Assembly: GCF_000025225.2 (NCBI RefSeq)
Contig: NC_013895.2
Location: 806,001 to 870,000, forward strand
DNA: 64,000 nucleotides
DNA from: Mageeibacillus indolicus UPII9-5
Lineage (GTDB): Bacteria > Bacillota > Clostridia > Saccharofermentanales > Fastidiosipilaceae
Direction of reading: 5' to 3'
Under the pieces are notes generated by a model. The model saw only the letters and a program-made list of their open reading frames with translations. It did not search any database and had not been told where the DNA came from. Made by a program: the position numbers and the translations under genes. Positions 8,226 through 8,464 of the stretch are shown here, piece by piece (positions within the stretch are counted from its first letter, which is position 1; every line of letters starts with the position of its first letter).

Positions 8226-8330
8226 ATGGGAAATCTGACAAAATCCTTGACAGACAGACAGACAGACAGACAGACAGACAGACAGACAGACAGACAGACA
8301 GACAGCGTAGCTCTGTCTCTTTTCACATAG
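8226..8330 (+). CDS. Leader ORF of cassette 2, containing the GACA microsatellite
   Basis: 34 codons: MGNLTKSLT, then four DRQT units, then DSVALSLFT and a stop at 8328-8330. An AAAAGG lies 11 nt upstream. The first codons match the leader of cassette 1 (LTxSLTDR). Because the repeat unit is 4 nt, each gain or loss of a unit changes the frame downstream. With 15 or 12 units the stop would move to 8366-8368, inside the hairpin. With 13 or 16 units it would move to 8308-8310. The peptide itself is probably unimportant; the place where ribosomes stop may matter. Confidence 0.5.
   Translation: MGNLTKSLTDRQTDRQTDRQTDRQTDSVALSLFT
8249..8304 (+). repeat. (GACA)14 tetranucleotide microsatellite
   Basis: Fourteen perfect GACA units, 56 bp. 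Perfect tetranucleotide tracts of this length in bacteria are typical contingency loci that mutate by slipped-strand mispairing. It lies downstream of the predicted promoter, inside a leader ORF and upstream of a terminator-like hairpin. AGACAG at its end can also pair with CTGTCT at 8313-8318. The equivalent place in cassette 1 (5109-5116) has two units. Confidence 0.97.
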
Positions 8331-8342
8331 AATTTTTTAATC

Positions 8343-8390
8343 GGCAGAAATATATACCTAATGGATAGGTACGTGTTTCTGCCTATTTTT
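8343..8390 (+). promoter_or_regulatory. Terminator-like hairpin in the leader of cassette 2
   Basis: GGCAGAAA (8343-8350) pairs with TTTCTGCC (8376-8383), and TACCTA pairs with TAGGTA inside, followed by TATTTTTGTG. This is a good intrinsic-terminator shape placed about 80 nt before the surface gene, so it would stop most transcripts unless melted. It begins 12 nt after the present leader-ORF stop codon. Confidence 0.62.
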
Positions 8391-8464
8391 GTGTGATTTT
8401 TCAAAACAATAATATAAGTAATTTAAATACATGAAGAAATGTAAGAATAATAAATGGAGTTGAG

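Follow-up and report, generated by a model that had tools for sequence, protein, structure and literature searches.

Anatomy of the leader region

The window, a stretch of 64,000 nucleotides (C1:806001-870000) in a genome of one contig with 1,809,746 bases, contains a repeat array within a short ORF ahead of a gene for a surface protein, with an intrinsic terminator-like hairpin in between (Table 1). The original prediction described this order of promoter, leader ORF with (GACA)14, hairpin, and surface gene, and the description proved accurate on re-analysis. (GACA)3 matches 12 times in the window, each time inside the array, and shuffled sequence gave none. By eye, the N terminus of the surface protein resembles a signal peptide. 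The hairpin itself (8343-8383, followed by TATTTTT) has a folding energy of -23.2 kcal/mol (z = -6.1), with equally good folds in 0 of 200 shuffles. A simple terminator scan of positions 7800-8800 called no terminator, which we attribute to its rules, as these want a loop of 3-8 nt and T residues directly after the stem, and the stem here is interrupted. At the end of the array, TCTGTC could by eye pair alternatively with GGCAGA (8343-8348) in the 5' arm of the terminator. A CTGTCT-like sequence is seen by eye 3' of the array in many modules.

Table 1. Features of the module and its degenerate copy, in window coordinates
Feature	Position	Strand	Basis or remark
Upstream promoter P1, TAGTCA-17-TATAAT	8158-8186	+	Promoter listing; by eye also in Gardnerella, G001, and Atopobium copies
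Shine-Dalgarno-like AAAGG before leader ORF	8210-8214	+	Spacing 11 nt
Second promoter-like site P2, TTGACA-18-CAAAAT	8215-8244	+	10/12 matches; putative function
Leader ORF, ATG at 8226, 34 codons at n = 14 units	8226-8330	+	Frame recomputation
(GACA)14 array plus 1 base	8249-8305	+	Tandem Repeats Finder: GACA x14.2, 100% match
Putative array-end hairpin AGACAG/CTGTCT	8300-8305/8313-8318	+	By eye
Intrinsic terminator-like hairpin and T-run	8343-8390	+	Fold, shuffles
Cell wall-anchored surface protein gene	8465-10741	+	Beta_helix_3 and Big_3 matches, IPKTG wall-sorting motif
Degenerate module copy	4993-5199	+	2 GACA units, weaker hairpin (-12.7 kcal/mol)
Further surface protein gene, 3' of degenerate module	5272-7341	+	DUF1542, IPKTG

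The number of units determines the frame in which the leader continues past the array. With 10, 13, or 16 units the leader stop ends at 8310 (32 nt before the hairpin), with 11, 14, or 17 units at 8330 (12 nt before it), and with 12, 15, or 18 units at 8368, inside the hairpin. The three-frame arithmetic given earlier for 12 to 16 units was exact on recomputation. The second promoter-like site, P2, overlaps the start codon of the leader ORF and ends 4 nt ahead of the array. An RNA begun at P2 would be without the start codon, which we count against an attenuator that depends on leader translation.

The ORF at 7667-8131, just before the module, has a C terminus that we take to resemble the tail of a large serine recombinase, and Pfam gave no match to this ORF. 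The same C terminus is found in ORFs that precede the modules at L047, L054, L079, and L087-L090. The serine recombinase-like tail may mean that the module is transferred with a mobile element. At 10828-11251, repeats of ~43 bp run into an ORF fragment with the motif DPPYNTGS, which looks like the remnant of a DNA methyltransferase.

Recurrence of the module and placement of leader stops

The window genome (G000) has three GACA arrays: the one in the window, one of 12 units at C1:1558166, ~200 nt ahead of a SpaA-type surface gene, and one at C1:377163. Two shorter copies of the module, at window position 4993 and at C1:1611011, each lie before a gene for a surface or secreted protein. G001, a genome from the same family, has five copies, one of which (L032) lacks the leader ATG and counts against an attenuator. 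One array module each was located in Atopobium deltae and Atopobium sp. Marseille-P4126. Searching genome contigs with the window surface protein gave six loci, three of them in Gardnerella with promoter, leader, and hairpin as in the window but with GGCA as the unit; in the other three the match is confined to the C-terminal end. The Gardnerella arrays (L022, L023, and L024, at ~4775-4820) consist of GGCA throughout between highly similar flanks, as though a single point mutation had been copied along the array. Leader DNA was matched in 7 of 81 genomes in a genus search around one Gardnerella genome.

A census of the class, which like the viral scan described below used patterns of the repeat alone, with neither TTGACA nor ATG built in, detected (GACA)7 in 9 of 391 genomes. 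Thirteen arrays were located: seven in modules in which a leader and a terminator precede a gene for a surface or secreted protein (G000 and G168 with two each; G182, G281, and G345 with one each), four in hsdS-like genes (G000, G140, G334, and G233), and two at contig ends (G408 and G345_C14). G168, G281, G182, and G345 represent four families, all other than that of the window genome. G140 and G408 have more (GACA)7 matches than arrays located; a left-anchored search in these two genomes found no additional array start with a flank, and the surplus matches probably sit at contig edges.

Twenty-one module copies were compared, with L032, L056 (no promoter or start), L055 (same as L047), L057 (masked), L062 (contig end), and the G009 match kept outside the comparison. 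A hairpin with a T-run is present in 20 of the 21, two being weak (-8.0 and -12.7 kcal/mol). By eye, all 17 proteins examined downstream of modules have signal peptide-like starts. At L047, L054, and L055, which have 3 GACA units, the downstream gene encodes a short CPKCGG-type protein with no signal peptide. Therefore, not every module copy serves a surface gene, a point that we also count against an attenuator.

Signals for leader translation and variation in unit number were found across copies. Summed over 15 proposed leader starts, Shine-Dalgarno affinity was -110.1 kcal/mol versus -80.8 kcal/mol (sd 8.0) in shuffles, none of 200 being as good. Taken alone, the AAAGG of the window leader was equalled by 43% of shuffles, which counts against an attenuator. 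A comparison of GACA number between copies revealed near-identical modules that differ in unit number, with 14 units in L090, 16 in L088, 20 in L089, and 22 in L079. This variation extends to the three Gardnerella genomes, which have 9, 8, and 14 GGCA units.

The positions of stop codons 3' of the array were compared with those in 2000 dinucleotide shuffles of the same stretch. The test took 11 diverged modules from the 21 compared copies, omitting four near-copies of the window module and six copies with 2-3 units. In 11 of 11, one frame stops early, no more than 8 nt past the array (null mean 3.67, at most 9). Entry of another frame into the terminator by at least 8 nt, seen in 10 of 11, is on its own marginally above chance (null 7.26, p = 0.045). 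Early stop and terminator entry occur together in 10 of the 11 modules, with a null of 2.07 and at most 7 in the 2000 shuffles. The early-stop sequences differ between modules (GCGTAG, GCTGTAA, ACTAA, GCTAG, GAGGTAA, GAGCTTAA), so that the stop itself is conserved rather than its letters. In L041, a copy from G001 in which the terminator starts 116 nt past the array, the long frame runs through it and ends 202 nt past the array, 3 nt ahead of the gene start (shuffle p = 0.007), and in L083 and the C1:1611011 copy the long leader frame overlaps the start codon of the downstream gene. Of the 11 diverged modules, three (L042, L081, and L083) were assembled in the read-through frame.

Several copies count against an attenuator. 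The deep-reading frame occurs in 0 of 8 near-relatives (the window module itself, L090, L088, L089, L079, and three Gardnerella). G078 has no frame that enters the terminator, and neither does G345_C7, with stops 10, 38, and 45 nt past the array and a hairpin from about 49. G168_334 fits the frame pattern, with stops 7, 35, and 93 nt past the array and a hairpin from 34. G168_334 and G345_C7 are later modules outside the 11-module test; with both added by hand, early stops are found in 12 of 13 modules and terminator entry in 11 of 13.

Promoter-like sites ahead of GACA arrays

A site of the form TTGACA-N16..18-(-10) that scores at least 10/12, with the -10 element ending 2-7 nt before the array, is present at 12 of 12 cellular arrays of at least seven GACA units with upstream sequence. 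The background for this score in the same loci is 0.47% of 41,550 positions. Exact TTGACA lies 32-36 nt upstream in 11 of 12 arrays of the class set, three of these inside hsdS. In the window genome, locus L009 (G000:C1:372000-384000) has (GACA)21 at C1:377163-377246 inside hsdS, with TTGACA-17-GATAAT just before the array and a second specificity region after it in another frame. This hsdS likely belongs to a phase-variable type I restriction system.

In viral contigs, TTGACA starts 29-36 nt upstream of 56 of 98 GACA arrays among the matches listed (about 0.3% expected), counts that are not independent because the genes with arrays are often homologous. On the opposite strand, used as a control, TTGACA falls in this range for 1 of 83 arrays, again among the matches listed. 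GCAGA arrays in viral contigs have TTGACA upstream in 12 of 39 cases and on the opposite strand in 0 of 38, likewise among the matches listed. A -10-like hexamer follows 25 of the 56 array TTGACA sequences versus 68 of 713 other TTGACA sequences in the same loci (p = 1.5e-10, among the matches listed). Sorted by context, 33 of 40 PAPS reductase-like genes, 10 of 12 C5-methyltransferase genes, and 5 of 6 HsdS genes have TTGACA, against just 8 of 40 other contexts; this is a rough motif sort among the matches listed, with a Pfam check on one PAPS reductase-like and one C5-methyltransferase protein. Because TTGACA is found in the named families but few others, the rule covers those families and leaders, not every GACA array. 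Across viral loci L133-L246 and L247-L294, many PAPS reductase-like and cytosine-C5 methyltransferase genes contain GACA or GCAGA arrays with TTGACA ~32 nt upstream.

Two other causes of this pattern were rejected. TTGACA is not a property of any repeat, as it occurs 27-40 nt upstream of 0 of 26 CAAT arrays and upstream of 2 of 22 GAAA arrays, one of which (L328) lies behind the KYLT motif of the PAPS-like family. Protein homology was rejected as the cause, since TTGAC(A/G) is spread over two reading frames (phase 0, 43; phase 1, 22) and since within the PAPS reductase-like family the array shifts together with TTGACA (L147, L183, L162, and L170 versus the rest).

The repeats seem, from their sequence context, to sit at a transcription start. 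What looks new is the σ70-like site directly ahead of GACA arrays, even inside hsdS. Read as a rule that places promoters at repeats, the pattern would take in leaders as well as hsdS, cytosine methyltransferase, and PAPS reductase-like genes of bacteria and phages. P2-type sites could be working promoters and could drive repeat instability. More tentatively, contingency repeats could be built onto a promoter, with the start inside the first units, and initiation at a purine-rich repeat, through the open complex or an R-loop, might make or maintain the array or raise its rate of slippage. If true, mutability would be encoded by the start-site promoter and not by the repeat alone; were the promoter-at-repeat rule functional, how fast contingency loci mutate would depend on transcription initiation.

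A candidate translated attenuator and its alternatives

The design suggested by the window has a precedent in Streptococcus gallolyticus. Danne et al (2014; PMC3894217) showed that the pil1 locus has GCAGA repeats in a leader ORF followed by a premature terminator, and is regulated by ribosome-induced antitermination, using mutants of the start codon, the terminator, and the stop; they describe pil3 as alike. In their data, a pil1 leader that stops 28 nt or more ahead of the terminator goes with mostly low expression, and a stop immediately upstream of the terminator gives a high proportion of ON cells. The claim that a repeat-tuned translated attenuator would be a different design is thus superseded, since pil1 already works in this way. 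The modules resemble pil1 and pil3 in having repeats in a short leader ORF, an intrinsic terminator that separates this leader from the surface genes, and a leader stop that an out-of-frame change in unit number shifts to a place within or beyond the terminator. In pil1 and pil3 the copy number differs from isolate to isolate, and here it differs between near-identical modules. The modules differ in their unit, GACA or GGCA rather than GCAGA, and in their hosts, which are Clostridia, Gardnerella, and Atopobium rather than Streptococcus, with up to five copies per genome. In the window module, the array adjoins a second promoter-like site. A literature search of titles and abstract openings found no GACA leader modules described in these organisms, a paper on Gardnerella phase variation concerns homopolymers in the part available (PMC11287997), and the terms "leader peptide", "attenuation", and "gallolyticus" are all absent from the text of a review (PMC11868660). 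By eye, the viral-collection contigs L267 and L284 have GCAGA leaders of similar layout, with a hairpin-like sequence and then a signal peptide gene.

Anatomy and frame logic, the return of the layout in diverged copies, and copy-number variation, all observed here, make frame-dependent, ribosome-mediated attenuation a well-supported candidate, and the window locus is likely a phase-variable, translated transcription attenuator. The GACA run in the leader probably switches the surface protein through the position at which ribosomes stop before the terminator. In the mechanism that we infer, which comprises transcription, translation, termination, and phase-dependent expression, RNA polymerase would initiate at P1 and ribosomes at the leader start codon at 8226. 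Slippage would change the number of GACA units and, with it, the frame of ribosomes leaving the array. When n = 1 mod 3, ribosomes would halt at 8310, far from the terminator, and most transcripts would end there (OFF). When n = 0 mod 3, ribosomes would enter the terminator loop (8368) and melt the hairpin, allowing transcription of the surface gene (ON). In the sequenced state of 14 units (n = 2 mod 3), they would halt 12 nt short of the hairpin, with a level that is probably intermediate. The original prediction of a terminator switch set by the repeat stands in part: the related modules fit frame-dependent leader translation, but 14 units is not clearly an OFF state, because the stop, 12 nt from the hairpin, is nearer than those that Danne et al link to mostly low expression, and may be an intermediate one.

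If P2 were a working promoter from which the array is the first sequence transcribed, unit number could alter initiation, RNA stability, or hairpin competition with no leader translation. This would account for the high-scoring sites 2-7 nt ahead of all 12 cellular arrays and the exact TTGACA upstream of 56 of 98 viral GACA arrays among the matches listed. However, TTGACA is likewise found ahead of arrays within hsdS, C5-methyltransferase, and PAPS reductase-like coding sequence, where a main promoter is impossible, and the frame pattern 3' of the array is left unexplained, as is G168_334, where an ATG with a Shine-Dalgarno-like sequence lies about 100 nt upstream. We consider this account unlikely.

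An attenuator built from RNA structure, in which the array end, CTGTCT, and the terminator arms switch pairing (1:2, 2:3, 3:4) and repeat number is a passenger, is very improbable. The AGACAG/CTGTCT and TCTGTC/GGCAGA pairings that it needs are possible in the window, and CTGTCT-like sequence follows the array by eye in many copies, but the 2:3 pairing is absent by eye in L059, L061, and L083. A trp-like three-way pairing, possible in the window, was rejected on the same by-eye reading of L059, L061, and L083. Moreover, the pairing uses the last unit alone, so that unit number would be irrelevant. Rfam models gave no match up to E<=1 in 4700-13000, and a known riboswitch or T-box was rejected on this result. 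That the array merely mutates with the surface gene expressed anyway we find hardly credible: several copies do retain the layout with just 2-3 units, but the order of array, terminator, and surface gene recurs, accounting for 7 of the 13 arrays in the class census, and stops are placed far beyond chance. The most plausible reading of the locus is a further leader-peptide repeat attenuator, with a putative start-site promoter at the repeat as a feature that is new and unexplained. On this reading, the use of a switch known from one Streptococcus would extend to surface proteins of other bacteria, some of them linked to bacterial vaginosis, and the module loci would allow switch typing directly from reads.

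In classical contingency loci such as Haemophilus lgtC, the GACA repeat lies within the main ORF. The window array shares with lgtC, and with the hsdS, C5-methyltransferase, and PAPS reductase-like ORFs found here, the GACA unit and the logic of slippage, and in many cases these ORFs have the same TTGACA spacing as the leaders. In contrast, the window array lies outside the main gene, with a terminator between them. Repeats that change promoter spacing are known for hif, hmw, and nadA, where, as in the window, an upstream tandem repeat governs a surface protein; unlike these, the window array lies 3' of both promoter-like sites and neither separates nor precedes their -35 and -10 elements. As in trp-type leader attenuation, the fate of the terminator would be decided by the position of a ribosome on the leader ORF, but the leader has no run of regulatory codons, and the input would be repeat number rather than charged tRNA. 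GACA arrays also mark the 5' ends of ORFs at L082 (G812) and L094 that look acyltransferase-like on sequence recognition alone, and these would be classical contingency loci with a GACA unit.
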